DNA of 64,000 nucleotides from assembly GCA_017999365.1 (NCBI GenBank), contig JAGNLW010000001.1:938239-1002238 (forward strand), in the 5' to 3' direction. Below, in pieces: positions 800 to 53,319 of this stretch. The position numbers and the translations under genes were made by a program. The notes beneath the pieces are model-generated. The model was not told where the DNA came from and did not search any database. It was given only the letters and a program-made list of their open reading frames with translations. The DNA is from Candidatus Aminicenantota bacterium (lineage in GTDB: Bacteria; Acidobacteriota; Aminicenantia; Aminicenantales; Saccharicenantaceae). How positions within the stretch are numbered: position 1 is the first letter of the stretch; every line of letters begins with the position of its first letter.

Positions 800-2179
800 A
801 TGGGCAAGACGCATCCGGCGCCGGCCGCCGACCCCATCAGCCGGCGCGATTTCCTCCGATCCTCGGCCGCGGCCGGCCTCGGCGCCGCGTTCGCCGGCGC
901 GGCCTTCGGCCAGACCGCCGCGCCGGCCGCTCCGGCGGCCGCCGCCGCGAAGGCCGCCGACGAGCTGCGGGTGGCCGTCATCGGCTGCGGCGCCCAGGGC
1001 CGGGTCCTCATCGAGGCCATGCTGCGCGTCCCCTCGGTCCGCATCGCGGCCATCTGCGACATCTGGTCCTACAGCCGCCAATACACGGGCAACTACCTCA
1101 AGAAGTACGGCCACGCCGCCAACGTCTACGAAGACTACCGCGAGCTCCTGGCGGCCGAGAAGGACATCGACGCGGCCGTCGTGGCCACCCCCGACTGGGT
1201 CCACGCCGAGCACGCCAACGCCTGCCTCCGGCGCGGCTGGCCCGTCTACTGCGAGAAGGAGATGGCCAACACGCTGGAGAAGGCCCGGTCCATGGTCCTG
1301 ACGGCCCGGGAGACGGGGAAGCTCCTCCAGATCGGCCACCAGCGCCGCTCCAATCCCCGCTACATCCACGCTCTCGACCGGCTCATCCGCGACCGCGCCC
1401 TGCTCGGCCGGGTGACCGTCGCCTACGCCCAGTGGAACCGGGCCAAGGCCGACCTCCTGGGCTGGCCGGAGAAATACGCCATCGACCAGGCCACCCTCGA
1501 CAAGTACGGCTACGCCAACATGACCGAGTTCCGCAACTGGCGCCTTTACAAGAAGTTCGGCGGCGGCCCCATGGTCGACCTGGGCTCCCATCAGATCGAC
1601 CTGTTCAGCTGGGTCTACGGCGGGCCGCCCAAGTCGGTCGTGGCCAGCGGCGGCCTCGACTACTACAGGGACTGGGAGTGGTACGACAACGTCATGGCCA
1701 TCTACGAGTACGCCACGCCGCAGGGCACGGCCCGGGCCTTCTACCAGGTCCAGACGACGACCCAGCACGGCGGCTTCTACGAGACCTTCATGGGCGAGAA
1801 CGGCTCGCTCGTCCTGTCCGAGATCCCCGAACGCGGCAACTGGGCCATGCGCGAGCCCCACGCCCCCGAGTGGGACTCCCTGGCCAAAGCCGGCCTGCTC
1901 CAGTCCGAAGCCGTGCCGATCCAGAAGTCGGCGACCAAGAACATCTACGTCGACGTCCGGGTCACGGCCGAGGCGGGCCGCTGGCCGCTGCCGGTCGAGC
2001 TGGCCAAGCCGGCCCACCAGCCCCACCTCGAGAACTTCTTCGACGCCGTGCGCCACGGCACGCCGCTCAACTGCCCCGCCGAGCTGGCCTACGAATCGTG
2101 CGTCGCGGTCCTCAAGGCCAACGAGGCGGTCAAGGCCCGCCAGGTGGTCGATTTCCGGCCGGAGCAGTTCAAGGCATGA
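800..2179 (+). CDS. Tat-exported Gfo/Idh/MocA family oxidoreductase
   Basis: 459 residues. An AGGAGA Shine-Dalgarno precedes the ATG. The N-terminus carries a Tat signal with SRRDFLRSS (twin Arg at 15-16) and an Ala-rich hydrophobic stretch, so the enzyme is probably folded with its nicotinamide cofactor and exported. The Rossmann motif GCGAQG is at 62-67. The usual EKP motif reads EKE (152-154), so the lysine is kept but the proline is lost. The second-domain signature DLGSHQID (260-267) supplies the expected Asp and His. Family members oxidise sugars or glycosides; the substrate cannot be read from sequence. The stop overlaps the next start as ATGA, so this gene is translationally coupled to a heptaheme cytochrome, an unusual partner that suggests electrons leave through haem. 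Confidence 0.9.
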   Translation: MGKTHPAPAADPISRRDFLRSSAAAGLGAAFAGAAFGQTAAPAAPAAAAAKAADELRVAVIGCGAQGRVLIEAMLRVPSVRIAAICDIWSYSRQYTGNYLKKYGHAANVYEDYRELLAAEKDIDAAVVATPDWVHAEHANACLRRGWPVYCEKEMANTLEKARSMVLTARETGKLLQIGHQRRSNPRYIHALDRLIRDRALLGRVTVAYAQWNRAKADLLGWPEKYAIDQATLDKYGYANMTEFRNWRLYKKFGGGPMVDLGSHQIDLFSWVYGGPPKSVVASGGLDYYRDWEWYDNVMAIYEYATPQGTARAFYQVQTTTQHGGFYETFMGENGSLVLSEIPERGNWAMREPHAPEWDSLAKAGLLQSEAVPIQKSATKNIYVDVRVTAEAGRWPLPVELAKPAHQPHLENFFDAVRHGTPLNCPAELAYESCVAVLKANEAVKARQVVDFRPEQFKA

Positions 2180-4527
2180 GCCGCCGCGGCAGGGTCCTCT
2201 CCGCCCTCGCGTCCTTCGCCGCGGCGATCGCCGTCGCGGCCGCCGGGCAGGCCGCCCAGACCCCGCCCGCGGCCGACACGCACGCCGTCTGGGACGGGGC
2301 CCGGACGACGCCCGTCCACCTCATCCCCCTGCGCGACGAGAACGACGAGCTCATCGTGCCGACCGAGACCGATCCCCTGCCGTACTCGGCCCGCTTCACC
2401 TGCGGCCCCTGCCACGACTACGCCACGGTCAGCGGCGGCTGGCACTTCGCCGGCAAGGCCTCGGCGAACGACGGCCGTCCCGGCGAGCCCTGGCTCCAGT
2501 TCGACCCGCGGACGGGCACCGTCCTGCCGCTCTCGTACCGCAAGTGGCCCGGCCTCTACGATCCCGCGGCGGCCGGCCTGACGGCCTGGGACTTCACCCT
2601 GCTCTTCGGCCGGCACATGCCCGGCGGCGGGGCGGCCGAGCCCCCCGACGAGGAGGTCCTGGCCCATCCCGAGGCCCGCTGGAACGTCTCCGGCCGGGCC
2701 GAGGCCAACTGCCTGGCCTGCCACAACGGCTCGGGCCGCCAGGACCCGAGCGAGTGGGCCAAGCAGATCCTGCGCGAGAACCTGCGCTGGGCGGCCACGG
2801 CGGCCGGCGGCCTCGGCGAAGTCGGCGGCATGGCCTCCCGCCTCAAGGAGACCTGGGACGTCGTCGACGGGCCCAACCTCGACGACCACCTCTGGGCCGT
2901 GGCCCCCTCGGTCAAGTACCGGGCCGCGGACTTCGACTCCAAGCAGCGCACCTTCTTCGACCTCGACCACAAGCCGGCCGACGCCAACTGCCTGGCCTGC
3001 CACGCCGTTTCGCCCGCGGGCGAAGCCCAGTGGACCGCCGACGGCGACGTCCACGCCGCGGCCGGATTGACGTGCGCCGACTGCCACCGGAACGGCCTCG
3101 ACCACGCCATGGTCCGCGGCTACGAGGGCGAGGCGGACGAGACCGGCAACCGGCCGGCCGAGGCCTTCACCTGCCGGGGCTGCCACCTCGGCGAGAACGC
3201 CAAGGGCGAGAAAAAGGTCGTCCCCGGCCGGTTGGGCGCCCCCTTCCCCAAGCACACCGGCCTGCCCCTCGTCCACTTCAAGCGCCTGGCCTGCACGGTC
3301 TGCCACTCGGGGCCCATGCCCAAGGACGGCTTCACCCGGGTCCGGACCTCGCGGGCCAATCGCCTCGGAATCTACGGCGTGGCGACGTGGGCGACGGAGG
3401 CGCCGGTCCTCGTCGAGCCCGTCTATAAGAAGGACGGTCGGGGCCGGATCGCGCCGCACCGGCTGGTCTGGCCGGCCTACTGGGCCAAGAGGGCCGGGCA
3501 GGACCTCGTCCCCCTCCAGCCCAAGGCCGTCGAGGCCGCCGCGGGCGACTTCCTCAAGCCCGAGGAACGGATCGCGCAAACCCTCGCCGCCCTCGGACAG
3601 ACCCTGGCCGAGGACGAAACGCCCGTCCTCGTCTCGGGCGGTTTCGTCTTCGCCCCCAACGTCGACCTCGGCCTGGACGCCTCGTCCCGGCCGGAGGGCG
3701 CGGGGGACGGCGCCGCGCCCGCCTTCTGGGCCCTGCGCACGGCCGCCGGCATCGCGCCCCTGGTTCCCGACTTCGACCCCGCCTCGCCCGACAAGGACCC
3801 GTCCGTCGACGCCCGTTTCCAGGACTTCCTGCAGGCCCTGGCCACGACCCCGGGCAAGCCCGGAGAGCCGGTCTTCCTCGTCCGGTCGACGCTCTACCGC
3901 ATCGTCGACGGCTTCCTCGACGCCTCCGAGGCGCCGGCCGACCTCGGCGGCGCGCCCGGCCCGGGTTGGATCGTCGAGGGCAAGCTCGTCCCCCTGGCCG
4001 CCGACTTCGACATCGGCACCGTCACCGCCAAGGCCGGGACGGACAAGACCCTGACCGAGGAGCAGGTCGGGCTCGTCCTGGCGGCCCTGAGGAAAGCGGA
4101 CGACCAGGCCGAGTTCGTCTACATCTCCGGCGGCCGACTCTTCCGGCTCGACAAGAAAGGCCGCCTCGAAAGCGTGAAAGACGAGGCCGCCGAGCCCGTC
4201 ACCTGGCCCCTGGCCCACGGCGTCCGCCCGGCCCAGCAGTCGCTCGGCTGGAAGGGCTGCACGGACTGCCACAGCGGCGGCTCGGACTTCTTCTTCGGCC
4301 GCCTCGAGGGCACGGGCCCGCTGCTGACCGCGTCCGTGGCCGAGCGGTCCGCCTCCTCCTTCATGGGCCTCGGCGGGCTGTTCCAGCGCGTTTTCGGGCT
4401 GTCCTTCATCGTCCGGCCGGCCCTCAAGATCGTCCTGGGGGTCTGCGCGGCCGTCATCGGCGCGCTGTTGTTCCTGGCCGGCCTGGTCGCCCTGGGCCGG
4501 GTGGCCGGCTTCCTGGAGAAGAGGTGA
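2176..4527 (+). CDS. Heptaheme c-type cytochrome with C-terminal membrane anchor
   Basis: 783 residues. The frame is open upstream, but the ATG at 2176, overlapping the previous stop, is followed at once by a signal peptide (Arg-rich start, Ala-rich core, AQA-like end near 28), so I start there. Seven CXXCH haem sites are visible: at 76, 179, 272, 300, 333, 373 and 695. Residues 380-690 have no haem and hold repeated VFLVRSTLYRI- and FVYISGGRLFRL-like strands, probably a beta-rich structural region. A single membrane helix lies near 745-770 before a short basic tail. It is likely a periplasmic electron carrier tethered to the inner membrane and working with the cytochrome b-like protein that follows 5 bases later. 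I do not recognise a named family. Confidence 0.9.
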   Translation: MSRRGRVLSALASFAAAIAVAAAGQAAQTPPAADTHAVWDGARTTPVHLIPLRDENDELIVPTETDPLPYSARFTCGPCHDYATVSGGWHFAGKASANDGRPGEPWLQFDPRTGTVLPLSYRKWPGLYDPAAAGLTAWDFTLLFGRHMPGGGAAEPPDEEVLAHPEARWNVSGRAEANCLACHNGSGRQDPSEWAKQILRENLRWAATAAGGLGEVGGMASRLKETWDVVDGPNLDDHLWAVAPSVKYRAADFDSKQRTFFDLDHKPADANCLACHAVSPAGEAQWTADGDVHAAAGLTCADCHRNGLDHAMVRGYEGEADETGNRPAEAFTCRGCHLGENAKGEKKVVPGRLGAPFPKHTGLPLVHFKRLACTVCHSGPMPKDGFTRVRTSRANRLGIYGVATWATEAPVLVEPVYKKDGRGRIAPHRLVWPAYWAKRAGQDLVPLQPKAVEAAAGDFLKPEERIAQTLAALGQTLAEDETPVLVSGGFVFAPNVDLGLDASSRPEGAGDGAAPAFWALRTAAGIAPLVPDFDPASPDKDPSVDARFQDFLQALATTPGKPGEPVFLVRSTLYRIVDGFLDASEAPADLGGAPGPGWIVEGKLVPLAADFDIGTVTAKAGTDKTLTEEQVGLVLAALRKADDQAEFVYISGGRLFRLDKKGRLESVKDEAAEPVTWPLAHGVRPAQQSLGWKGCTDCHSGGSDFFFGRLEGTGPLLTASVAERSASSFMGLGGLFQRVFGLSFIVRPALKIVLGVCAAVIGALLFLAGLVALGRVAGFLEKR

Positions 4528-4532
4528 GCGCC

Positions 4533-5234
4533 ATGCTGTTCGCGGCCGTCACCCTCCTCGCCGCCGCCGGGACCTTCCTCGGGCTGGCCTTCCACCGCTT
4601 CTGGACGACCCGCCCGGAGGCCCACACGACCATCCTCTACGCCGAGATCGCCGAGAAATTCTTCGCCTGGCTGGCGTTGCGGACCGTGCAGATGTCCCGC
4701 CGGGCCTCGCCCCGGGCCTGGGCGGCCTATCTCCGGGAGTTGCCGGTGTGGCGCTGGCCGGTCCTGGAGAGATGGCTCCACGTCGTCCTGTACGCGAGCT
4801 TCCTCTATCTCGCGGCCAGCGGCTTCTTCTTCGCCCTGTTCGTCCACCGGGGTCTTTACGGCTTTCCGCTCGTCGGCCACGTCGTGGCCGGGGGGCTGTT
4901 CGCCGTCTCCCTGACCGTCCTGGTCGTTTTCAAGGGGCGGCACTTCATCGCCGTGCCCCGGCCGGCCCTGCTCAGCTTGACGCTCCTCGACCCGAGGAAG
5001 ATGGGCATCACCCCCGCCCGGGTCAGGGCCTGGGCCTTCTGGGCCTTCGTTCTCGCGGGCTTCCTGCTGACGGTCTCGGCCCTCCTGCCGATGCTGCCGC
5101 TCCTGCGGACGGCCGGGCAGGCCTTCATGTTCGAGTTCCACCGCCTGAGCGCCGTCCTCTCGGCCGTCGCCGCGGCGGTCTATCTGGGGCTCGAGGTCTT
5201 CGCCGCCGCCCCGCCCCCTCCGCCGGCCCCCTGA
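4533..5234 (+). CDS. Cytochrome b-like integral membrane protein
   Basis: 233 residues, starting 5 bases after the heptaheme gene. The frame is open far upstream, but only the part from the ATG at 4533 has membrane-protein composition. About five helices are visible: residues 1-20, near 85-110, 115-140, 165-190 and 200-225. Histidines sit in or beside helices (WLHVV, VGHVV, EFHRL), as in di-haem cytochrome b or NapC/NrfD-like quinone-facing subunits. The likely role is electron exchange between the quinone pool and the haems of the neighbouring cytochrome. The C-terminus is a short Pro-rich tail. Haem ligation is inferred from histidine placement only. Confidence 0.65.
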   Translation: MLFAAVTLLAAAGTFLGLAFHRFWTTRPEAHTTILYAEIAEKFFAWLALRTVQMSRRASPRAWAAYLRELPVWRWPVLERWLHVVLYASFLYLAASGFFFALFVHRGLYGFPLVGHVVAGGLFAVSLTVLVVFKGRHFIAVPRPALLSLTLLDPRKMGITPARVRAWAFWAFVLAGFLLTVSALLPMLPLLRTAGQAFMFEFHRLSAVLSAVAAAVYLGLEVFAAAPPPPPAP

Positions 5235-9700: not shown

Positions 9701-9975
9701 GCGCGGAGATCGACCCCTCGGCCCCGATCCGGCTCGTCCTCCATTTCCTCGGCGGCGGCCGGCAGCGCAAGGAGATCGAGACCTGGCTCCAGGGCTGGAG
9801 CCTGTCGCTGGCCGAGATGAACTACTTCCGGACCGGCTTCCACTCCGAGGGCCTTCTCGACGTCCACTTCCTGACCGACGAGAAGGTCCGCGGCGAGAAG
9901 GACGTCGCCGCCCGGCTCAAGGTCGCCTCCGACGCCGTCCGGGAGCTGCCGCTCGGCCCGAAGGCCGGGGCATGA
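6787..9975 (+). CDS. PEP/pyruvate-binding (PPDK/PpsA ATP-grasp) protein with extra N- and C-terminal domains
   Basis: 1062 residues, preceded by GAGGAGG. Residues about 1-150 look like a small GAF-like sensor region with several Cys (ECCQ, TECAE, DCGP). The nucleotide-binding domain of pyruvate phosphate dikinases begins near 344 (KLGGKSAG), has VRSSSLLED and AFAGKY near 447-460, and ends near 705 with LLQCRPQ. The usual phosphohistidine swivel motif (GGRTCHAA type) and the C-terminal TIM barrel are absent; instead there is a unique tail (720-1062) with MGPGRWGSRGDIKLG. A normal PEP synthase reaction is therefore unlikely without a partner. It may phosphorylate another substrate or act as an ATP-dependent regulator. 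It leads an operon coupled to apbE by ATGA. Confidence 0.8.
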   Translation: MTNSRTPNPVNTLFSTLHERAKELNCLYRIEEILSLYDVPLEEVFRQVIEAIPPGWQYPECCQAQITYGSDVFESPDYEETPHTECAEIRVQDASVGRLCVSYKKPMPESDCGPFMKGEVKLIHTVAERLGHFILHQRLRGMYEKMSDDRREAAGEKQGWRIALDLLRNTNPGLLIGVSRKMMNYLGWRGVPEARDLLQRFSGGRTIESLFGESNLPQSRESMDRFFELTEETFRIASANLADDDILDRIQRWINEDRSSSAVQSLENVYADLAEVLDSMRRIKILAPEGIALPRSKANSVRVSLIRRFFTEQLEFINVAKKYVDLEDFFDLMERIVFPSGSHGKLGGKSAGLFLASRILKQAARRNAIIGSVKKPKTWYITSDGLSAFSTHNNLDEVHEQKYKDIEVIRQEYPHLVQVFKNSSFPPEVVKGLSVALDDFGEVPLIVRSSSLLEDRLGTAFAGKYKSLFLANQGDKQKRLEALCDAVAEVYASIFSPDPIQYRSERGLLDFYEEMGVMIQQVVGTRAGKYFFPAYAGVAFSRNEFRWSPRIRREDGLLRIVPGLGTRAVDRVNDDYPVLVAPSQPNLRVNVSTEEAVRYSPKKIDVIDLEENRFVTKDIRELLEEVGHEFPALTKVFSVYKEGLLQRPMGLATDIAKVDAVVTFDGLIAGTPFMLQMEAILKTLSTAMGVPVDIEFASTGTDFYLLQCRPQSQASEDVAMEIPSNLPDAAVLFTARKHVSNGRVADVTHLVYVDPDRYGELADYGDLVAVGEAVGKLNKLLPRRQFILMGPGRWGSRGDIKLGVRVTYSEINNSAMLIEVARKKGNYVPDVSFGTHFFQDLVESGIRYLPLYPDDEGVMFNERFLLEAPNKLAEHCPECAAVAHALRVIDIPEATGGKVLRVLMNADRELAVGFFAPPEAAVRTACAGGPAGAREDEDGSRWRQRMAERVAYHCGGQRWGVRGVYYLDESEGAEIDPSAPIRLVLHFLGGGRQRKEIETWLQGWSLSLAEMNYFRTGFHSEGLLDVHFLTDEKVRGEKDVAARLKVASDAVRELPLGPKAGA

Positions 9976-10913
9976 AGCGGGTCCCGCGCTTCGCCCACGA
10001 GGCGATGGCCACGGTCTTCGAGATCTTCGTCGCCGGCCGCGAGGAGGCCTACGCCGGCCAGGCCGCCCGGGCCGCCTTCGGGGAGATCGACCGCCTGGAG
10101 CGCCTGTTCAGCCGCTTCGACCCGGCCAGCGAGATCAGCCGCATCGGGCGGCTCCGGGCCGGCGAGGCCCTGCCCGTCGGGCTCGAAACGGCCGAGGTCC
10201 TGGGCCTGGCCGCGTTCGTGCAGGCGGAGACGGCCGGCGCCTTCGACGTCAACTTCCGCACGGCCGCCGCACCGGTCCGGGGCCGCGACCGGCGGCTCCC
10301 GGGCCCGGCCTTGGCCCGGCTCATCCGGGTCGACCGGACCGGGACCGGCTTCACGGTCACCCGGCTCCCGGCCCGGGGCCGGTCGAAGCTCCCGCCGCTC
10401 GACCTCGACCTCGGCGCCGTCGGCAAAGGCTACGCCCTCGACGCCGCCCTGGCCCTGCTCAAGGACTGGGACGCCGCGAACGTCCTTCTCCACGCCGGCA
10501 CGAGCACCGCCTTGGCCGCAGGGCCGGGACCCGGAGCGAACGAGACGGGTGAAGGCTGGCCCGTCGGGACCGGCGCGACGAAGGGCCGGGCCTCCGGCCC
10601 GGGCCGGGTCCTGCTCAGGAACCGGGCCCTCAGCGGCTCGGGGACCGAGGTCAAGGGCGAGCACATCGTCGACCCGCGGACCGGACGGTCCGCCGCGGGA
10701 CACGCCGCGGCCTGGGCCTCCCACCCCTCGGCGGCGGCGGCCGACGCCCTGTCGACGGCCTTCATGGTCCTCGCGACCCGGGACGTGGCCGGGTTCTGCC
10801 GCAGGCACCCGGCGGTCTGGGCCCTCGTGAAAACCGGCCCCGAAACGTGTAGAATATTCAACGCGGGCGAGATCGACGGAAAAGGGCCCGCGCCACGAAG
10901 GAGTCGCCGATGA
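9972..10913 (+). CDS. apbE: FAD:protein FMN transferase (ApbE family)
   Basis: 313 residues. The start overlaps the previous stop by 4 bases. The family core is visible: an N-terminal MATVFEIFV strand, FSRFDPASEISR (47-58), the FAD-binding DLGAVGKGYALD (146-157) and the metal-binding GEHIVDPRTG (229-238), where many members have TH(I/L)IDPRTG. ApbE attaches FMN through a phosphoester to Ser/Thr of FMN-binding-domain proteins. No signal peptide or lipobox is obvious, so it may act in the cytoplasm or lack a canonical export signal. No FMN_bind target is visible in this window. A TAGAAT hexamer at 10850-10855 near the 3' end could be an internal -10 for the next gene. Confidence 0.88.
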   Translation: MKRVPRFAHEAMATVFEIFVAGREEAYAGQAARAAFGEIDRLERLFSRFDPASEISRIGRLRAGEALPVGLETAEVLGLAAFVQAETAGAFDVNFRTAAAPVRGRDRRLPGPALARLIRVDRTGTGFTVTRLPARGRSKLPPLDLDLGAVGKGYALDAALALLKDWDAANVLLHAGTSTALAAGPGPGANETGEGWPVGTGATKGRASGPGRVLLRNRALSGSGTEVKGEHIVDPRTGRSAAGHAAAWASHPSAAAADALSTAFMVLATRDVAGFCRRHPAVWALVKTGPETCRIFNAGEIDGKGPAPRRSRR

Positions 10914-11584
10914 CAAGAACGCTCGCCGCCACGGCCCTCGCCGCCCTCGTCCTCTCCCTGGTCCCCGCCGCCGAGGCCCAGGAAGCCGGGAAGGAGGTCC
11001 TCAAGATCCAGCTGCCCAAGCCGATGTTCGTCGGCACGCCCAAGAACATCCGCACCCCCAACCTGGAGTCCATCACCGGCAAGCCCAGGGGCCCGTTCCT
11101 GGTCCCCGCCGGGACGGTCCTGCTGTCGGCCGGCAAGCCGGTCACGGCCAGCGACAAGGAGCCCGTCATCGGCGAGACGGCCTACGTCACGGACGGCAAG
11201 AAGTCCGGCGAGGACGGCTACTACGTCGAGCTCGGGCCCATGCTCCAGTGGGTCCAGATCGACCTCGGCAAGCCCTGCGAGCTCCAGGCCATCGTGGCCT
11301 GGCACTACCACAGCCAGGCCCGGGTCTACCGCGACGTCGTCGTCCAGGTCTCGGACGACAAGGACTTCGTCGCCGGCGTGACCACCGTTTTCAACAACGA
11401 CCACGACAACACCTCCGGCCTCGGGGCCGGCAAGGACAAGGAATACATCGAGACGTTCGACGGCAAGCTCTTCGATCCCAAGGGGGTCAAAGCCCGCTAC
11501 GTCCGGCTCTACAGCGGCGGCAACACCTCGAACGACATGAACCACTACGTGGAGGTCGAGGTCTACGGCCTCCCGGCCAAATGA
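10910..11584 (+). CDS. Secreted discoidin-like (F5/8 type C fold) protein
   Basis: 224 residues with a clear signal peptide ending near AEAQ (residues 20-24). The rest looks like one galactose-binding jelly-roll: LSAGKPVTASDKEP, a YVTDGKK loop, QWVQIDLGKPCEL in the middle and ARYVRLYSGG plus VEVEVYG at the end, which are the core strands of discoidin domains. Such domains bind carbohydrates or anchor enzymes to them; no catalytic domain is present. It is coupled on both sides by ATGA overlaps, to apbE before and the Agl23-like gene after. Ligand unknown. Confidence 0.75.
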   Translation: MTRTLAATALAALVLSLVPAAEAQEAGKEVLKIQLPKPMFVGTPKNIRTPNLESITGKPRGPFLVPAGTVLLSAGKPVTASDKEPVIGETAYVTDGKKSGEDGYYVELGPMLQWVQIDLGKPCELQAIVAWHYHSQARVYRDVVVQVSDDKDFVAGVTTVFNNDHDNTSGLGAGKDKEYIETFDGKLFDPKGVKARYVRLYSGGNTSNDMNHYVEVEVYGLPAK

Positions 11585-13158
11585 CGAAGAAGGCCTTCGC
11601 CGGTCTCTTCCTCTGCGCCCTGGCCGGCGCCCTCGTCCTGCGCCTGGCCCGCCCCGAGGCCCGGCCCGTCCATCCCGACGAGGCCAACCAGGCCGTCAAG
11701 TTCGGGGCCCTGCTCGAACGCGGGGACTACCGTTTCGATCCCCGCGACCACCACGGCCCGACCCTGTATTACCTGACCCTGCCGGCGGCCCGCCTGGCCG
11801 GGGCCCGGACCCTGGCCGGGCTCGACGTGGCCGCGCTGCGCGCCGTCCCGGCCCTGGCCGGCGCGGCCGTCCTCCTTCTGCTCCTCCTGCTCGCGGGGGG
11901 CCTCTCCCGCGAGGCCGTCCTGGCCGCGGCCGCCCTGGCCGCGGTCTCCCCGGCCATGGTCTATTACAGCCGCTTCTACATCCAGGAGACGCTCCTCGTG
12001 GCCTTTCTGGCCGCTCTCATCGGCGCCGGCTGGCGCTACGCCAAGACCCGATCCGCCCGGTGGGCCCTGGCCGCCGGAGCCGCGGCCGGGCTGATGGCGG
12101 CCACCAAAGAGACGAGCGCCCTTCTCTTCGCCGCCGCCGCCGCCGCCCTGGCCGCGACGGCGCTCGCGGAGAAAGCCTACGCCCGGCCCGGCGGCCGGAC
12201 CGCCGCCGATGGGTCCTGGACCTGGCACGGCGGGCGGAACGGGCTGCCGCGTCCGGAGCACGCCGTCCTGGCCCTGGCCGCCGGAGCCGCGGTCGCGGCC
12301 CTGTTCTACTCCTCGTTCTTCACCAACCCCGGGGGCTTGGCCGACGCGGTCCGCGCCCTCGGCCTGTCCCTGGAGCGGGCCGGGCATCCCGGCGTCCACG
12401 CCCATCCCTGGCATTACTATTTCGGCCTCCTGGCCTACGCCAAGGGCGCGTCCGGGCCCGTCTGGAGCGAGGCCTTCCTCCTGTTCCTGGCCCTGGCCGG
12501 CGGCATCGGGGCCCTGGCCCCGGACGGCGGCCGCGACGATTCGCCGCGCTTCCTTCGCTTCACGCTCTTCTTCACCGTGTTCACGGCGGCGGCCTACAGC
12601 CTCGTCCCCTACAAGACGCCCTGGAACCTCCTGCCCTTCTATTTCGGGCTCGTCCTCCTGGCCGGCCACGGCGTCGCCCTGCTCCTCCGCATCAGCCGAT
12701 CCCGCCTGGTCAAGCTGGCCGTCCTGGCGCTCCTCGTCCCGGGCTTCGCCGGGCTGGCCGCCCAGAGCTACCGGGCCAGCTTCGCCCGCCCGGCCGACCC
12801 GGCCAATCCCTACGCCTACGCCCAGACGGTCCCGGACCTCCTCCGTCTCGTCGGGGAAGTGGAGAGGGCGGCCGCGGCCGCGCCAGAAGGGAAGGACCTG
12901 CTCGTCGCGGTCGTCGCCCCGCCGGACGAGACCTGGCCCCTGCCGTGGTACCTCCGGGATTACGGGCGGGCCGGCTACTGGACGAGCCCGGCGGCCGCGC
13001 GCGAAGGGCTCGGAGAGGCGCGGCCGGCCGTCGTCGTTTCGTCCGCCGCTTTCGCCGAAGAGGTCGGCGCGGCGCTCGGCGCCGACTATCGGATGAGCTT
13101 CTACGGCCTCCGCCCGGAGGTCGTCCTGGCCCTCTTCGTCCGCGGCGGACGGCCCTAG
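11581..13158 (+). CDS. Agl23-like polytopic membrane protein (TIGR03663-type, GT-C fold)
   Basis: 525 residues, starting in an ATGA overlap. Many hydrophobic segments (roughly ten or more helices) follow a first extracytoplasmic loop with HPDEANQAVKFG (31-42) and DHHGPTLYY (56-64). That HPDE motif and loop are characteristic of the 'flippase activity-associated Agl23' family and resemble the acidic catalytic loop of GT39/ArnT-type glycosyltransferases that use lipid-linked sugars. A soluble domain occupies about 430-525. The likely role is glycosyl transfer at the outer face of the inner membrane, perhaps glycosylating exported products; donor and acceptor are unknown. It ends tail-to-tail with the minus-strand gene, overlapping it by 4 bases. 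Confidence 0.8.
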   Translation: MTKKAFAGLFLCALAGALVLRLARPEARPVHPDEANQAVKFGALLERGDYRFDPRDHHGPTLYYLTLPAARLAGARTLAGLDVAALRAVPALAGAAVLLLLLLLAGGLSREAVLAAAALAAVSPAMVYYSRFYIQETLLVAFLAALIGAGWRYAKTRSARWALAAGAAAGLMAATKETSALLFAAAAAALAATALAEKAYARPGGRTAADGSWTWHGGRNGLPRPEHAVLALAAGAAVAALFYSSFFTNPGGLADAVRALGLSLERAGHPGVHAHPWHYYFGLLAYAKGASGPVWSEAFLLFLALAGGIGALAPDGGRDDSPRFLRFTLFFTVFTAAAYSLVPYKTPWNLLPFYFGLVLLAGHGVALLLRISRSRLVKLAVLALLVPGFAGLAAQSYRASFARPADPANPYAYAQTVPDLLRLVGEVERAAAAAPEGKDLLVAVVAPPDETWPLPWYLRDYGRAGYWTSPAAAREGLGEARPAVVVSSAAFAEEVGAALGADYRMSFYGLRPEVVLALFVRGGRP

Positions 13159-13744: not shown

Positions 13745-14533
13745 CTACTTCTTCAGGAGCGGGGCGTAGGGGTTCGTCGGAGACGGGTCGTCGCCGGAGA
13801 TGCGGGCCGCCCAGAGCATCCCCCGCTGGACGATCTCGCGGGCCTCGGGGACGTCGAAATCGGCCCGGACGTGCCCGAGCGAGGTGTAGAAGACCCGGCC
13901 CTTGCCGTAGAGCTTCTTCCAGACGACCGGGACGACCGCGCCGTCGATCCACGGCGCGTGGGCCCCGGAGAAGGTCGTCGTGGCCAGGACCTGGACGGCC
14001 GGATCGACGTGCATGTAGTACTGCTCCGACTTCATGTGAAAGCGGCGCTCCAGTCCCTTCGTGACGGGATCGGCCGGGTCGGTGATGTCGACGTCGTAGT
14101 CGATGACGCCGCCCGGATGGGCCACCCACTGCCCGCCGACCATGAACTGGTACTCGACGGCCGAGCGGTGGGCGTCGCCCAGGCCGCCGTGCCAGCCGGC
14201 CAGCCCGACGCCGCTCTTGACGGCCTCCTCGAGGTTGCGCTCCTGCTCGCCGCCGATGTCGGACATGGTGAAGATGTGGACGATGAGGTCGAGCGTCTTG
14301 AGCTTGGCCAGGTCGAGGTAGGCGTCGAGGGTGTGCGAGACCTCGACCTTGAAGCCCTGGCTCTCGAGCCAGGGAGCGAACAGGTCGACGCACGGTTTGG
14401 GCTCGTGGCCCTCCCAGCCGCCCCAGACGACGAGGGCGGACTTGCCCCGGGCCGGGGCCTGGGCCGCGCCGGAGCAGACCAGCAGGCCGAGGACGGCGGC
14501 GGCCGCGGCGAAGGCGAGGATCGTTCTCTTCAT
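13745..14533 (-). CDS. ThuA-like domain protein, exported
   Basis: 262 residues from the ATG at 14533, which has AGGAG 7 bases upstream; the longer GTG start at 14548 would place that Shine-Dalgarno inside the gene and is rejected. After a signal peptide the protein shows the ThuA (class I glutamine-amidotransferase-like) fold: [28 protein letters not shown], a [15 protein letters not shown] loop and [17 protein letters not shown] near the end. ThuA proteins are repeatedly found with DUF1080 and Gfo/Idh/MocA proteins in saccharide utilisation loci and have been linked to 3-keto-sugar metabolism. The gene follows DUF1080 by 11 bases. Confidence 0.88.
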
Positions 14534-14544
14534 GGCGGGCTCCT

Positions 14545-15336
14545 TCACTCGAGCTCCCGGAGCCAGATGTTCCGGAAGCGGACGGGATGGTCGTGGTCCT
14601 GCAGGGAAATGGGCAGGCGGTCGGCGTGGGCCTTGTAGGGCGGCCGGGCCTTGTGGGCCGTCGGGCCGGTCAGGACGTCGTTGTCGTGGACGAGGAGACC
14701 GTTGTGGAAGACGGTCATCCGGGCCGGCGCGACGAGGGCCCCGTCCTGGTCGAAGCGCGGCCTATGGAAGACGATGTCGTAGGTCTGCCACTCCCCGGGC
14801 GGGCGGCAGGCGTTGACCAGGGGCGGGTGCTGGCCGTAGAGGGCCGCCGTCATGCCGTCGGCGTAGGTTCGGTTGCCGTAGCAGTCGAGGACCTGGACCT
14901 CGTAGAGGTCCATCAGGAAGACCCCGCTGTTGCCGCGGTCCTGGTCCGTCCCCTTGGCCGGCGACGGGGCCATCCATTCGACGTGGAGCTGGCAGTCGCC
15001 GTAGCCGGCCGCGGTCCGGATGCCGCCGCTCTTGGGCACGATCTCCATATAGCCGTTCTCGACCTTCCAGCGGGCCGGCCCGCCCTTGGCGTCGGTCCAG
15101 CGGCCGAGGTCCTTGCCGTCGAAGAGGACGACGGCGTCGGCCGGCGGCGGGACGGGCGGCCCGGCCGGGCCGGGCGCGACGACCTTCGGCTGAGGCCGTT
15201 CGCGGTCGTGGACGGCCCAGGTCAGGTCCTGGGCGGCCGCCGCGGCGGCGGCGGAGAACAGCAGCGCCGCGGCGACGGCGAAGCCCACCAGAGCCAAGTC
15301 CTTCGTCCGAATTCGGAAGATCTCTCTTGGGTTCAT
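14545..15336 (-). CDS. DUF1080 (3-keto-disaccharide hydrolase-type) secreted protein
   Basis: 263 residues. The start at 15336 has AGGAAGG just upstream; the frame is open further upstream without a good start. A signal peptide of about 40 residues ends in an Ala run. The mature part is a single concanavalin-like DUF1080 domain: [30 protein letters not shown], a QLHVEWMAP strand, [17 protein letters not shown] and [12 protein letters not shown] at the end, a classic terminal signature. Members are annotated as hydrolases of 3-keto-disaccharides. It probably acts in the periplasm on the product of the upstream Gfo/Idh/MocA oxidoreductase. It has its own leader with a possible Shine-Dalgarno-masking hairpin. 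Confidence 0.9.
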
Positions 15337-15599: not shown

Positions 15600-17003
15600 T
15601 CAGAGGCTCCAGCCGGGCCGGTAGGCGAAGTGCAGCAGCTCGTTGGCCTCGGGGAGGTTGGTGAACTCCATCTTGGCGGCGTCCCAGAGGAGCTTCATGT
15701 TCTTGTCCTTGAGGCGGACGGCGACGTTGGCCAGCAGCATGGCCTCGGTCAGCGGGCCCGAGTAGGAGAAGTCGGTCGTGGACTTGGTGCCGTTCTTGAT
15801 GGCCTCGAACCACTCCTCGCGGATGCCTTTGGAACGGGGGATGGTCTTGTCCGGCCGCTTGAAGTCCTGCATCCGGGTCTCGGGGACCAGGCGCGGGTTC
15901 TCGCCGTAGGTGCCGCACATGAGCAGGCCCTTGTCGCCGCGGATGAAGCAGCCGCCCCCGTCGTCGCCGACCATGCGGCCCGGTTCGAGCTCGGCCGGGC
16001 GCGGCGGCATCAGCCCGCCGTCCCACCAGGTCAGCTTGACGGGTCCGCGCGAGCCGTTGGCCGGGAACTCGTAGGTCACGACCTCGGCCTGGGGCGCGTA
16101 GTCGTTCGAGAAGACCGTCGACGAGCCCTCGACGCTGACGGGGGCCTTGAGGTCGAGGGCCCAGAAGGGCTGGTCCATGATGTGGGCGCCCATGTCGCCG
16201 AGGGCCCCGGTGCCGAAGTCCCACAGGCCCCGCCACTTGAAGGGGTGGTAGGCCGGGTGGTACGGGCGGAAGGGCGCCGGCCCCAGCCAGACGTCCCAGT
16301 CGAGGGTCGAGGGCGTCGAGGGGATCTCCTTGGGCGCGTCGATGCCGCCCTGGGGCCAGATCGGCCGGTTGGTCCAGCAGTGGACCTCGAAGACGTTGCC
16401 GATGGCGCCGGCCCGGATCCACTCGCAGACGAGGCGGGCGCCCTCGCCGGCGTGGCCCTGGTTGCCCATCTGGGTGGCCACGTTGGCCGCCTTGGCCGCC
16501 TCGGCCAGGGCCCGGGCCTCCTTGATGGTGTGGGTCAGGGGCTTCTGGACGTAGACGGCCTTGCCCAGCTTGATGGCGGCCATGGCGATGACGGCGTGGT
16601 TGTGGTCGGGCGTCGAGACGGTGACGGCGTCGATGCCCTTCTCCTTCTCGAACAGACGGCGCCAATCGCGGTACTTGGCGGCCTTCTCGTACATGGCCTT
16701 CTCGGCCGGCTCGAGGTCGTCACGGCGCAGGAGCCGGGCCACGCTCTCGTCGTCGACGTCGCAGAGGGCGACGACGTTCTGGGAACGGCAGCCGCGGGTG
16801 TCCGCGGCGCCCATGCCGCCGACGCCGACGCAGGCGATGTTGAGCGTATCGCTGGGGGCCTTCTTGGCGCCTTTCTTCTGCCCGCCGACGACGTGGCGGG
16901 GCACGACCATGAGGCCGGCGGCGGCCGTCGAGGCCGCCCCGAGGAACTTGCGCCGGCTCCAGGAGGGCTCGGCGGGCGCGGGGGTTTTGGTCGATTCGTC
17001 CAT
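15600..17003 (-). CDS. Tat-exported Gfo/Idh/MocA family oxidoreductase (second copy)
   Basis: 467 residues from the ATG at 17003, preceded by AAGGAAGG; upstream in-frame codons lie in the leader. The Tat signal SRRKFLGAAS has twin Arg at 17-18. The nucleotide motif is GVGGMG (60-65), the EKP-like motif reads QKP (153-155), and GDMGAHIMDQ in the C-terminal domain gives the expected Asp/His. It is of the type found with DUF1080 and ThuA proteins, where the oxidoreductase is thought to oxidise a glycoside at C3 before hydrolysis. It is only distantly similar to the copy at 800 and has different motif residues. A terminator separates it from the DUF1080 gene, so cotranscription would need read-through. 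Confidence 0.92.
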   Translation of the reverse strand: MDESTKTPAPAEPSWSRRKFLGAASTAAAGLMVVPRHVVGGQKKGAKKAPSDTLNIACVGVGGMGAADTRGCRSQNVVALCDVDDESVARLLRRDDLEPAEKAMYEKAAKYRDWRRLFEKEKGIDAVTVSTPDHNHAVIAMAAIKLGKAVYVQKPLTHTIKEARALAEAAKAANVATQMGNQGHAGEGARLVCEWIRAGAIGNVFEVHCWTNRPIWPQGGIDAPKEIPSTPSTLDWDVWLGPAPFRPYHPAYHPFKWRGLWDFGTGALGDMGAHIMDQPFWALDLKAPVSVEGSSTVFSNDYAPQAEVVTYEFPANGSRGPVKLTWWDGGLMPPRPAELEPGRMVGDDGGGCFIRGDKGLLMCGTYGENPRLVPETRMQDFKRPDKTIPRSKGIREEWFEAIKNGTKSTTDFSYSGPLTEAMLLANVAVRLKDKNMKLLWDAAKMEFTNLPEANELLHFAYRPGWSL

Positions 17004-23589: not shown

Positions 23590-23630
23590 ACGGGGGCACG
23601 TACCCCTGGTACGTGTCCCCGTTTTCTTTT
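23590..23630 (+). terminator. Strong terminator after the sigma operon
   Basis: A 15-base arm (23590-23604) pairs with 23608-23622 with one mismatch and a CCT loop, followed by TTTTCTTTT. The GGGCACGTACC core resembles REP palindromes. A TACAAT at 23630-23635 could serve as -10 for the next gene. Confidence 0.85.
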
Positions 23631-23669
23631 ACAATACCGGCGGACCCAAAAGGCAAAGAGGAGGCCCCC

Positions 23670-25031
23670 GTGAGACGATCCGTCCTGCCCGTCGTCCTCG
23701 TTCTCGCCGCCGTCGCCTTCCTGGCCATGGCCGCCGCCCAGGCGCCCAAGGCCGGCGAGGCCGCCCTCGGCACGCGCAAGTACGCCGATTACCAGACGCC
23801 GCAGTTCTGCGGCACGGCCTGCCACACGGACATCTACCGCCAATGGCAGCAGGCCATGATGTCCCAGGCCTACACCCATCACTGGGACGAGATCGAGTAC
23901 TTCAAGCTGGCCGTGCCCCACGCCGAGAAGGACCCCGTCGTGGCCGGGGTCAAGGCCGGCTGCAACGGCTGCCACGCCCCCATCGCCTTCCTGGCCGGCG
24001 ACGTCCCGCCGCCGGTCCCGGCCAAGAACAGCCGGGCCAACGAGTCCGTGCCCTGCGAGATCTGCCACACGGCCACCGGCTTCCAGGGCGACACGCCCCA
24101 CAACTTCAACTTCGTCTCCGAGCCCGGCAAGACCAAGTACGGTCCCCGCGAGAACAAGAACTCGCCGGAGCACAACCTGGTCAGGTCCGAGTTCCTGGGC
24201 ACGGCCGACTTCTGCGGCACCTGCCACAACGAGATGAGCCCCTACGGCGTCTGGGTCAAGTCGACCCACCTCGAGTGGAAGGAGGGCCCCTACGCCAAAC
24301 AGGGCGTCAAGTGCCACGACTGCCACATGACCTACGCCCCGGGCAAGTCGGCGGCCATGGGCGCGGCCTACCCCGACGTCCGCCAGCATCTCTTCCACGG
24401 CGCCCACGACGAGGGCAAGGTCCGGGGCACGATCGAACTCCGCATCCACCCCGACGTCCGCGAGGCCGTGCCCGGCGACCCCGTCAAATTCACGGTCGCC
24501 CTGTTCAACCAGAAGACCGGCCACAAGTTCCCGTCCGGCTCGGTCGAGGACCGCATCGTCTGGATGCACGTCGAGGCCGTCGACGCCAAGGGGACGGTCT
24601 ACCATCTGCCGGTCGACAAGAAGGGCTTCGCGGGCGAGGAGTTCACCATCGCCGCCGACACCCTGGCCTATCAGGACATGGGCATCGCCCTCGGCGACCC
24701 GGCCTTCAAGGGCCTCCAGCGCGACGGCGTGCCCATCGGCGACCGCATCTTCCGCATGGCCTACTTCGACCCGCAGGGCCGCATGACCCTCCAACAGTGG
24801 AACACCAAGTCGCTCGGGACCGACTACCGCCTCGGGCCGCGCGAGACCAAGCTCGAGACGTGCACCTTCCGGCTCCCCGACGGCGTCGCCCTGGGCGAGC
24901 TCAAGGTCACGGCCGTCCTCTACTATCAGAAGCTGGTCAAGCCGGCGGCCGACTTCCTCGGCGTCCCGCCCGACGAGGCCGAGCCCATCGAGGTCAACCG
25001 GCACTCGACGACGGTCGCCATCGTCGATTGA
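23670..25031 (+). CDS. Pentaheme c-type cytochrome, periplasmic
   Basis: 453 residues from the GTG at 23670, with AGAGGAGG 5 bases upstream; the longer ATG frame starting at 23613 would run through the terminator hairpin and is rejected. A signal peptide ends near 23. Haem motifs: an unusual CX3CH (CGTACH, 47-52), then CNGCH 98-102, CEICH 129-133, CGTCH 182-186 and CHDCH 215-219. The spacing and extra His recall the multiheme cytochrome c-554/NrfA-like fold family. Residues 260-453 are a haem-free beta-sandwich with TGHKFPSGSVEDR. It is probably an electron carrier working with the Cyc2-like protein 26 bases downstream. Confidence 0.9.
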   Translation: MRRSVLPVVLVLAAVAFLAMAAAQAPKAGEAALGTRKYADYQTPQFCGTACHTDIYRQWQQAMMSQAYTHHWDEIEYFKLAVPHAEKDPVVAGVKAGCNGCHAPIAFLAGDVPPPVPAKNSRANESVPCEICHTATGFQGDTPHNFNFVSEPGKTKYGPRENKNSPEHNLVRSEFLGTADFCGTCHNEMSPYGVWVKSTHLEWKEGPYAKQGVKCHDCHMTYAPGKSAAMGAAYPDVRQHLFHGAHDEGKVRGTIELRIHPDVREAVPGDPVKFTVALFNQKTGHKFPSGSVEDRIVWMHVEAVDAKGTVYHLPVDKKGFAGEEFTIAADTLAYQDMGIALGDPAFKGLQRDGVPIGDRIFRMAYFDPQGRMTLQQWNTKSLGTDYRLGPRETKLETCTFRLPDGVALGELKVTAVLYYQKLVKPAADFLGVPPDEAEPIEVNRHSTTVAIVD

Positions 25032-50142: not shown

Positions 50143-53100
50143 TTATCCTAACGGGACTCCCTTTCGCGCCTCCCGCTCGGCGAGGCGCTTCATCAGCTCC
50201 GCGACGGCGCGCTCCAACTGCCGGTCGACTCCCCGCATCGAGTCCTCCGGCCGGTTCTCGACGTCGATATCGGGCGATACGCCCACGTTCTCGATGACAC
50301 CCTTGCCTTCCGCCGGATAGACGAGGACGCCGCCGTCGATGAGCCTCATCCCTCCCGTCGAAGCGAGGCGTCCCGCCGTACGGCGGCCGATGATGGGGCC
50401 GACGTCCCACTGGCGAAAGATGGCCGCGAACGTCTCCCCGCTCGATTCGACGCCCTCGTTGATCAGGCAGACCTTGAGCCCGGCGAACACGGGATCGGGC
50501 TCGGAGATCGGAGCCTTCCCGTGCGGGAGCGCCGACCGGAAGATCGTCCGGCGGTTCAGCCGCTCGATCATCCAGACGGGCGAGTATCCGCCGCCGTTGT
50601 CGCGCAGGTCCAAGATCAGGCCTTCCTTGTGAAGGAGGGCGGGGGCCTGGCGGAAGAACGCCGCGATGCCCGGGATGTAGGTGTCCGGCAGATGGAGGTA
50701 GCCGATCCGGCCGCCGCTCGCCTTGGCAACGGCCTCCCGGTTGCGCGAAACCCAGTCCGCGTAGCGGAGCGGATCGCCCCCATTCTCCGAACATGCCGCC
50801 GGCCTCACGGTCAGGCGCCGGGCGCCTTCCGGGCTCGGGCGCGAATTGACCGTGACGACGACGTCCCGTCCGGCCTTGTCGAGGAGCAGGGAATCCGGGT
50901 TAATGCCTTCTCTCAGCGGAGCGCCGTCGATGGCCAGGAGATAATCTCCCGGCTTGACGTCCATTCCCGGCAGCGTGAGAGGGCCGATAAGGTCCGGCTC
51001 TCCGTTCCGGCCGCGGAAGACCCGGACGATGCGGTAGAGATGCGTGGCCGGGTCGGGCTCGAGGTCGACGCCCAGCAGTCCGTGACCGCGCCGGGGGGCC
51101 ACCGGCAGGTCCCCGCCCGAGATCTCCAGGTGGCTGTGGCCCAGCTCGGCGAACATCTCTTCGAGGAGGTAGTTGAGGTCCTGGCGCGAGGCCACATGGG
51201 ACAGGAGGGTTTCGTATTTCCTCCGGACGGCCGGCCAGTCGAGCCCGCGCAGACCGTCGTCGTAGAAAAAATCCCTGACGATGCGCCAGGAATCGCCGAA
51301 GATCTGGGCCCATTCGCGGCGGCGGTCGACGTCCATGCGCAGCCCGGACAGGTCCAGCTTAGCGTCGCCCGCGTTTTTCTCCCCATGAAGGTCGAGAATC
51401 CCGATCCCCTCATCCGCCCGATAGACGGCCTTGGCCGAACGGGCCGCCGGCGCCAGGTAAAAGGCGTCGCTCGACAGGACCGACTCCTTTTTCGAGGCCA
51501 GGTCGAACAGCTTGAAGCTCGACGCGCCGGAAGACGGCGACGAACGATAGACGAGGCCCCCTTCGACGGCCCGCAGGGCATCGTAGGTCGAATCCTCCAC
51601 GGGCAGGGCCACGATCCGCTCGCCCAGTCCTTCGACGTCGATCCGCAGGGGGCCCGGCCCGGCGCCTCCGGGAACGGGGGCGTCGTTCACCGCGCCCGGG
51701 GTGAACGGAGACGGGTCCTCGCGCCGCAGCGTCGCGGCCACGATGGTCGACGGATCGACGATATGATGGTCCCCGTCCCAGAAAGAATCTTCCACGTTGG
51801 TCTGACCGTAGGCGACCCAATAGAGCAACCGGCCGGCGAGGTCGAACCGGGGATCGGAGGCGTGATAGGTCCCGTCCGTCACGCGGAACGAACGGTCCTG
51901 CTCCAGCGAATAGAGCCAGACCGAGCTGAGCCAATTGGGCTCGCCGAGAGTATAAGCCAGCCAGCGGCCGTCGGGAGACCAGGCCGCGGACGCGAACGGC
52001 ACCGACCCCTGATAAGCGTTGAAGAAGATCCGTTTCGTGAGGCCGGTATCGAGATCGAGGATATGGTAAGCCGCCCGATGATCGGGGAAGCCGAGTCGCC
52101 GCCCGTCGGGCGACCAGCTCGGCGGTCCGATCCGGCCGGCTTCCATACGACTGACCTGCTCGGGCTCCCCGTCGTCGCCTTCCCGGAGGATGTAGATCTG
52201 GTCCTCTCCCGTGGCGTCGGAAACGTAGGCGATGCTCCCGCCGTCGGGATGCCACTGCGGATATCGTTCGCAGGCGCCGGGGGTCCGGGTCAGGTTCACG
52301 GAGGACTTGCTGTCCGGGGCGAGTAAGAACAGGTCTCCCCGGGCGCTCAGGACGACCTTGCGCCCGTCGGGCGACAGGGCCGGGGCGCCCGAGATGTATC
52401 CTTCGACGCCGACGGCCCGCTCGACTTTGGGCTCCCCCGCTCCGGGGACCTCGATGGGGACGGGCGTCAGGGTCTCGGTGCGGACATCGAAGACGGCGAT
52501 CCGCCCCTCGTTCTCGAAGACGATCCGGCCGCCGCCCCGGCTCGGACAGCGGACCGGCCAATCCCGGAAAAAGGTCAGCTGCCGGGAGGCCTTGGTCTTG
52601 AGATCGTGGACCCATAGATTGGGCCGGGCCCGGTCGCCCTTGTCGCTGACATAGTAGACGCGGTCCCCGATCCAGAGGGGGTCGCCGTTGACGCACCCGT
52701 CCGCGACCAGGGGCTCCGAAGTCCCCAGGGCGGGATCGTACGTCCAGATCCCGGGCGCGGCCCCGCCGCGATAGCCCTGAGGCAGGCCATCGGAGGGAGT
52801 GCGGCTGAAGGCCACCTTGTCCCCCGCTTCGTTGAAGCTCGCCAGATCGGCTTCCGGCAACGCCAAGGCCCTGACCAGTCCGCCCTCGGCCGGAACGCCG
52901 AGGAGGCGGTTGACCCGGTCGGAGGAGCTGAGCGCGTTGGAGCGGAAGACGACGCTCTTCCCGTCCGGGCTCCAGTCGACGACCCGATCGTCGGCCGGAT
53001 GGAACGTCAGCCGCCGCGGCTGCTCCCCCGACACGGACATGACGTAAACATCCAGGTTGCCTTCGAGCTCGGCCGTGAAGGCGATCCGCCGGCCATCGGG

Positions 53101-53319
53101 CGAGAACTTCGGCAGGAGCTCCTCCCCCGGCAGAGACGTGAGGCGCCGGGCGCTCCCCCCGTCGCTGGAAGCGATAAAGAGGTCGCCGCCGTGACAGAAG
53201 ACGATCTTGTCCCCATGGATGTCCGGATAGCGCAGCAGGCGCGTCTCCCGTGACGAGGCGGCCGGCGGCCCGAGGACGAGAAGGCCGGCGGCCAGGATAT
53301 AAGGGCTGAGCTTGGTCAT
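50143..53319 (-). CDS. Periplasmic Tricorn-type protease (S41 family)
   Basis: 1058 residues with a signal peptide. Residues about 25-620 form two WD-like beta-propellers with TolB-like PDGRRIAF and SPDGKSVVF repeats. A PDZ-like segment lies near 740-850. The S41 protease part has LGHSHLEIS (His near 730) and the catalytic Ser in EGVESSGETFA (near 957), with the C-terminal ELVPAYGKGV-like region. AAGG start near AASSRETRLLRYPDIHGDKIVF is the usual Tricorn opener. It degrades peptides in the periplasm. An RBS AAGGAG and TATATA lie upstream. Confidence 0.94.
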   Translation of the reverse strand: MTKLSPYILAAGLLVLGPPAASSRETRLLRYPDIHGDKIVFCHGGDLFIASSDGGSARRLTSLPGEELLPKFSPDGRRIAFTAELEGNLDVYVMSVSGEQPRRLTFHPADDRVVDWSPDGKSVVFRSNALSSSDRVNRLLGVPAEGGLVRALALPEADLASFNEAGDKVAFSRTPSDGLPQGYRGGAAPGIWTYDPALGTSEPLVADGCVNGDPLWIGDRVYYVSDKGDRARPNLWVHDLKTKASRQLTFFRDWPVRCPSRGGGRIVFENEGRIAVFDVRTETLTPVPIEVPGAGEPKVERAVGVEGYISGAPALSPDGRKVVLSARGDLFLLAPDSKSSVNLTRTPGACERYPQWHPDGGSIAYVSDATGEDQIYILREGDDGEPEQVSRMEAGRIGPPSWSPDGRRLGFPDHRAAYHILDLDTGLTKRIFFNAYQGSVPFASAAWSPDGRWLAYTLGEPNWLSSVWLYSLEQDRSFRVTDGTYHASDPRFDLAGRLLYWVAYGQTNVEDSFWDGDHHIVDPSTIVAATLRREDPSPFTPGAVNDAPVPGGAGPGPLRIDVEGLGERIVALPVEDSTYDALRAVEGGLVYRSSPSSGASSFKLFDLASKKESVLSSDAFYLAPAARSAKAVYRADEGIGILDLHGEKNAGDAKLDLSGLRMDVDRRREWAQIFGDSWRIVRDFFYDDGLRGLDWPAVRRKYETLLSHVASRQDLNYLLEEMFAELGHSHLEISGGDLPVAPRRGHGLLGVDLEPDPATHLYRIVRVFRGRNGEPDLIGPLTLPGMDVKPGDYLLAIDGAPLREGINPDSLLLDKAGRDVVVTVNSRPSPEGARRLTVRPAACSENGGDPLRYADWVSRNREAVAKASGGRIGYLHLPDTYIPGIAAFFRQAPALLHKEGLILDLRDNGGGYSPVWMIERLNRRTIFRSALPHGKAPISEPDPVFAGLKVCLINEGVESSGETFAAIFRQWDVGPIIGRRTAGRLASTGGMRLIDGGVLVYPAEGKGVIENVGVSPDIDVENRPEDSMRGVDRQLERAVAELMKRLAEREARKGVPLG

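Follow-up and report, generated by a model that had tools for sequence, protein, structure and literature searches.

A conserved operon linking a Tat-exported Gfo/Idh/MocA oxidoreductase to a heptaheme cytochrome and a b-type membrane protein in Acidobacteriota

The Gfo/Idh/MocA proteins form a very large family of sugar oxidoreductases that are considered to regenerate their NAD(P), whether bound or in solution. The LacABC dehydrogenase is an FAD-dependent enzyme of the GMC type with a small cytochrome of its own. Proteins with DUF1080 have been shown or proposed to hydrolyse 3-ketoglycosides (PMC9007349). Here we describe an operon in a Candidatus Aminicenantes genome (2.8 Mb, 95% complete) in which the gene for a Gfo/Idh/MocA protein, Gfo1, is followed by those for a heptaheme cytochrome and a b561-like membrane protein, within a 64,000-nucleotide stretch of DNA that was analysed as a whole (the window). 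The gene set points to an undescribed route by which electrons from extracytoplasmic sugars would enter the respiratory chain.

The operon and its conservation

The three genes of the operon are as follows.

800..2179, + strand: Gfo1, Tat-exported Gfo/Idh/MocA oxidoreductase of 459 aa (PF01408, PF22725, PF02894 and TAT_signal above cut-off; alignment of 27 orthologues)
2176..4527, + strand: heptaheme c-type cytochrome of 783 aa (seven CXXCH motifs; 14 invariant His in 23 orthologues)
4533..5234, + strand: b561-like membrane protein of 233 aa with about five helices (H116 and H203 invariant; one polypeptide with the cytochrome at two loci)

The gfo1 and cytochrome genes share an ATGA overlap at 2176, and five bases lie between the cytochrome stop and the start of the membrane protein gene. 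This layout, including Tat export and a heptaheme cytochrome, had been given in a preliminary description, and the open reading frame coordinates together with motif and profile matches confirm it.

The presence of Gfo1, the cytochrome and ApbE was scored per genome in about 141 genomes of the class Aminicenantia (Acidobacteriota), to which the present genome probably belongs. Gfo1 was found in 60 of these, the cytochrome in 58 and both in 56 (Fisher p ~8e-32, with the genomes treated as unrelated). The two genes are adjacent in 57 of the 60 Gfo1 genomes; in 55 of these, they are same-strand neighbours separated by a median of 86 bases, and in G045 and G086, the adjacency holds in loci cut by contig ends. 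Of the three genomes that lack adjacency, one (G092) is cut inside gfo1, and in the other two (G069 and G070) a DoxX gene takes the place of the cytochrome gene. The preliminary description had named separation of the oxidoreductase and cytochrome genes in most relatives as evidence against coupling; the reverse is seen and, judging by these counts, the pairing did not arise by chance. The cytochrome occurs in 29 of 34 genomes of the window's family, and every locus there of sufficient length has the order gfo-cyt-cytb, which recurs in other families of the same order (one locus, L037, is cut before gfo). The pair is also present in other Acidobacteriota classes, at about 50% identity for Gfo1 and about 40% for the cytochrome, so that the search for a conserved gene order proposed at the outset traces it across families and classes. 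The distribution was sampled within Acidobacteriota, and a scan of genome contigs for relatives yielded only two matches, both from Aminicenantes.

In seven loci of other Acidobacteriota (L105-L111), a DoxX/DoxD-like membrane protein is encoded directly after Gfo1 and the haem genes are absent; the same gfo1-DoxX arrangement, also without haem genes, is found in the Aminicenantia genomes G069 and G070. The DoxX-type Gfo1s group in a single clade (support 0.97) that branches from within the cytochrome-linked Gfo1s (0.94 and 0.98); the tree tips L086-L088 and L090-L093, although labelled cyt, correspond to the DoxX loci. Thiosulfate:quinone oxidoreductase contains DoxD as one of its subunits. 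The replacement in situ of the cytochrome c and b unit by a quinone-type protein is the strongest argument for a quinone end point, and we favour the quinone pool as the place where Gfo1 electrons would end. Of the two outlets first envisaged, the quinone pool is thus retained, whereas nothing points to an outer acceptor. At two further loci, L056 and L057, a single polypeptide combines the cytochrome with the b-type protein, which makes them one physical unit there. The adjacency, the c/b fusions and the DoxX replacement of the haem unit in a nested clade together strongly support the original proposal that the oxidoreductase, the haem chain and the membrane protein are a functional unit.

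The oxidoreductase and the haem proteins

Both profile and fold matches assign Gfo1 to the Gfo/Idh/MocA family, with a Rossmann NAD-binding domain and a Gfo C-terminal domain. The scores are 73.6 bits for PF01408 (2.8e-20), 52.6 for PF22725 and 45.4 for PF02894, all above cut-off, and 24.2 bits for the TAT_signal model PF10518 (cut-off 22.7). The GCGAQG motif occupies residues 62-67, and D87, which closes the second strand, suggests a preference for NAD over NADP. Among the 27 aligned orthologues, K153, the candidate catalytic Lys, and D260 and H264 of the DxxxH motif are invariant. The EKP motif reads EKE (152-154) in 54 of 55 Gfo1 orthologues, cytochrome and DoxX types alike. The EKE reading had been noted early on and tentatively related to a changed cofactor cycle; the motif itself is a stable feature of Gfo1, but as a marker of haem coupling it is ruled out because DoxX-coupled orthologues share it.

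The predicted structure of Gfo1 (pLDDT 82.6) fits glucuronide-3-dehydrogenase, L-glucose dehydrogenase, GenD2 and glucose-fructose oxidoreductase (GFOR) about equally, at 18-21% identity, and the fold matches are mostly dehydrogenases. Against NF058561, the model of the BT_2158 glycoside 3-dehydrogenase, Gfo1 scores 84.4 bits, outside the family at a cut-off of 750. Sugar oxidation, perhaps at C3, is a plausible activity given the modelled fold. From known Gfo/Idh/MocA chemistry, and with GFOR among the near-equal best fold matches and a second Gfo in the cluster, it could be argued that Gfo1 recycles NAD by itself, internally or by substrate exchange in the manner of GFOR or GH109, and that the cytochrome and the b-type protein serve another oxidation of the cluster with no contact to Gfo1. 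However, the cytochrome follows Gfo1, and never Gfo2, in every locus, DoxX takes the same slot, and the co-occurrence of Gfo1 with the cytochrome is near complete, and we consider such self-recycling unlikely.

The cytochrome has a signal helix at its N-terminus, a hydrophobic helix (752-770) at its C-terminus and exactly seven CXXCH motifs, at residues 76, 179, 272, 300, 333, 373 and 695. All 23 heptaheme orthologues compared retain 14 His, namely, the seven of the haem motifs and exactly seven others (H48, 90, 293, 310, 360, 367 and 681; a single partial sequence is missing the last two). With seven haem motifs and seven further invariant His, the cytochrome looks like a membrane-anchored wire of seven haems with predicted bis-histidine ligation and no open catalytic haem, rather than an enzyme. 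Distant octaheme relatives (28-31% identity; L050, L051 and L059-L063), with no neighbouring Gfo1, share nearly all the His of the heptaheme protein and carry an additional haem motif; in L060, the octaheme protein is joined to a cytochrome b resembling formate dehydrogenase gamma and hydrogenase subunits. Given this shared pattern, the heptaheme protein probably represents a branch in which one haem was lost and a pairing with Gfo1 arose.

The other similarities of the cytochrome are weak, to NrfB-like and octaheme-like proteins and to NrfA chains, and with 22 bits against a cut-off of 375, and seven haems instead of eight, it falls outside the octaheme tetrathionate reductase family TIGR04315. 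These similarities, and the cytochrome b joined to the octaheme relative, would be accounted for if the heptaheme protein were a terminal reductase, kin to the octaheme tetrathionate or nitrite reductases, with Gfo1 only incidental to it. We judge this very improbable: candidate distal His are conserved for all seven haems and the additional haem of the octaheme proteins has no counterpart, so that no open haem site is evident, and the co-occurrence shows that Gfo1 is not incidental.

The predicted model of the cytochrome has a mean pLDDT of 54.1, mostly below 50 in the haem domain, and is confident only for an insert between haems 6 and 7 (residues ~412-680, window ~3409-4215), which consists of repeated beta-hairpins and is mostly absent from relatives in other classes; its stretch at ~440-640 occurs in Aminicenantia and not in those relatives. 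No PDB fold match was found for the cytochrome model (best E 0.028, prob 0.09) or for the insert, and the only solved sequence relatives of the cytochrome or the b-type protein are short NrfA-like haem stretches. The b-type protein is weakly similar to PF01292, with 20.7 bits for the window copy (cut-off 30.1) and matches for 8 of 14 orthologues (best E 3.5e-8). Its only invariant His are H116 and H203, so that it probably holds one b haem.

The window encodes another secreted multihaem cytochrome (23613-25031, + strand), with four CXXCH motifs and a weak match to ExtKL (48 bits against a cut-off of 250), downstream of a pair of RNA polymerase sigma-like genes. Two proteins are encoded further along on the - strand: a Tricorn-type protease that combines a PD40 propeller with PDZ and S41 peptidase domains (50143-53319) and a secreted RHS-repeat protein of 2121 aa with Ig-like HYDIN/ASH-type domains (55517-61882).

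The wider cluster, the proposed pathway and a possible flavin

The cluster extends beyond the three genes first described, to the following six.

9972..10913, + strand: ApbE-family flavin transferase (PF02424 118 bits, cut-off 25.6; triad S223-H231-D258)
10910..11584, + strand: F5/8 type C (galactose-binding-like) secreted protein (PF00754 and PF22633 above cut-off)
11581..13158, + strand: PMT-like membrane protein, TIGR03663 (flippase activity-associated Agl23; 205.9 bits, cut-off 126.25)
13745..14548, - strand: ThuA-family protein (PF06283, 166 bits)
14545..15336, - strand: 3-keto-disaccharide hydrolase family protein (DUF1080, PF06439; 151 bits, cut-off 26.8)
15600..17003, - strand: Gfo2, a second Tat-type Gfo/Idh/MocA protein, glycoside 3-dehydrogenase-like (NF058561 521 bits, below the cut-off of 750)

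The apbE, F5/8 type C and TIGR03663 genes form a tight block (9972-13158) with ATGA overlaps that is conserved over Acidobacteriota classes (as in L072, L076, L077 and L085), even at loci devoid of haem genes. In the window's genus, genes for glutamate dehydrogenase and a PEP-synthase-like protein lie between the b gene and apbE; in other families, apbE directly follows the b gene, and we rejected these two intervening genes as members of the unit. The ThuA, hydrolase and Gfo2 genes of the window converge with the operon; in other classes, they are partly co-directional with it. The proximity of a 3-keto-disaccharide hydrolase, a ThuA protein and a glycoside-3-dehydrogenase-like Gfo suggests catabolism of 3-keto-glycosides.

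We hold it to be slightly more probable than not that the operon specifies a periplasmic sugar dehydrogenase linked to quinone. Gfo1 would fold in the cytoplasm with NAD and then be exported by the Tat system to oxidise a secondary alcohol, for which C3 of a glycoside is the likeliest position; its reducing equivalents would pass to the membrane-anchored heptaheme cytochrome, in place of NADH release, and along the bis-histidine wire to the b-type protein and menaquinone, and the 3-keto-glycoside would be split by the neighbouring hydrolase and ThuA proteins. Gene content and order with their conservation, the haem motifs, the c/b fusions and the exchange for DoxX come from the sequences themselves; the flow of electrons and its direction, the use of NAD, the substrate and the protein complex are the parts of this scheme that we infer. 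The score of only 84 bits for Gfo1 against the glycoside 3-dehydrogenase model and the existence of octaheme relatives without a Gfo count against it. Identical parts would also serve the opposite flow, in which electrons from quinol enter at the b-type protein and reach Gfo1 by way of the heptaheme cytochrome, and Gfo1 would then reduce a keto-sugar or another periplasmic carbonyl; units of multihaem and b-type cytochromes are often quinol dehydrogenases, and the weak NrfB-like and octaheme-like matches stem from reductase systems. Nevertheless, with catabolic neighbours, mostly dehydrogenases among the fold matches of Gfo1 and the poor energetics of keto-sugar reduction by menaquinol, reverse flow appears distinctly improbable.

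It also counts against a dehydrogenase of the proposed kind that NADH is not known to reduce haem directly without a flavin or something similar and that no flavin site was identified. The conserved ApbE may hint at a flavin on the way from hydride to haem: a bound flavin is a candidate converter of hydride into single electrons. ApbE of this type is encoded in 54 of the 58 cytochrome genomes and also alongside several DoxX-type Gfo1s, that is, it tracks Gfo1 and not the haems. Its Ser-His-Asp triad, of a kind reviewed in PMC12052999, is invariant in the alignment, and the protein, with neither signal peptide nor membrane helix, is apparently cytosolic. It is the sole ApbE found in the genome, where searches for FMN_bind, RnfD/NqrB and DUF2271 proteins found none, and we rejected service to FMN_bind, Rnf/Nqr or DUF2271 proteins for this genome. 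The target motif D-x-x-[ST]-G-A-[ST] is absent from all proteins of the cluster; orphan ApbEs with unknown substrates are acknowledged in the literature (PMC8238504). On one hypothesis, a cytosolic ApbE modifies the enzyme that Tat exports, which would overcome the difficulty of passing electrons from hydride to haem. As a speculative and rather unlikely possibility, we propose that this orphan ApbE attaches FMN to a non-canonical site of Gfo1 before Tat export and that the flavin splits the hydride of NADH into single electrons for either of the swappable outlets, the heptaheme and b-type proteins or a DoxX quinone reductase.

Comparison with described systems

No described Gfo-multihaem or Gfo-DoxX system was met in the papers searched, among which subscription journals were thinly covered and the family name, being written with slashes, could not be searched; the initial impression that no system with these genes had been described agrees with this. 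If the proposed pathway is correct, a conserved branch of the Gfo/Idh/MocA family with a dedicated, swappable respiratory outlet ties periplasmic sugar oxidation directly to the quinone pool, which would account for some of the energy metabolism in uncultured Acidobacteriota. The route from a nicotinamide enzyme to haem and the substrate of an orphan ApbE become testable questions.

Flavinylation-linked extracytosolic electron transfer (PMC8238504, PMC11334425) resembles the locus in having apbE within a periplasmic redox cluster, and orphan ApbEs; here, by contrast, the genome lacks FMN_bind, RnfD and DUF2271 proteins, the cluster lacks [ST]GA[ST] and ApbE lacks a signal peptide. With the octaheme tetrathionate reductase-type cytochromes (TIGR04315) and the octaheme-cytochrome b proteins, the heptaheme protein shares the haem and His pattern seen in the Acidobacteriota octaheme relatives, and a membrane b-type partner, but it is one haem short, has no evident open site and is partnered by a sugar oxidoreductase. 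The Gfo/Idh/MocA glycoside 3-dehydrogenases (the BT_2158 family and the glucuronide-3-dehydrogenase 8tdi) and GFOR, which is also Tat-exported, have the fold, the NAD-binding domain and the predicted catalytic Lys, Asp and His in common with Gfo1, which differs in EKE for EKP, in reaching 84 of 750 bits with NF058561 and in the dedicated electron-transfer genes of its operon. The lactose/glucoside 3-dehydrogenase LacABC of Caulobacter with its DUF1080 hydrolase (PMC9007349) combines periplasmic oxidation of glycosides at C3, a respiratory acceptor and DUF1080 genes nearby, all of which the gene content suggests here as well. In the present locus, however, a profile search found no GMC domain in the three operon proteins, the catalytic protein is a Gfo/Idh/MocA oxidoreductase, and the outlet is a heptaheme cytochrome with a b-type protein, or DoxX. 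Because its catalytic protein comes from another family, the operon would be LacABC-like in its working without being a member of that family.
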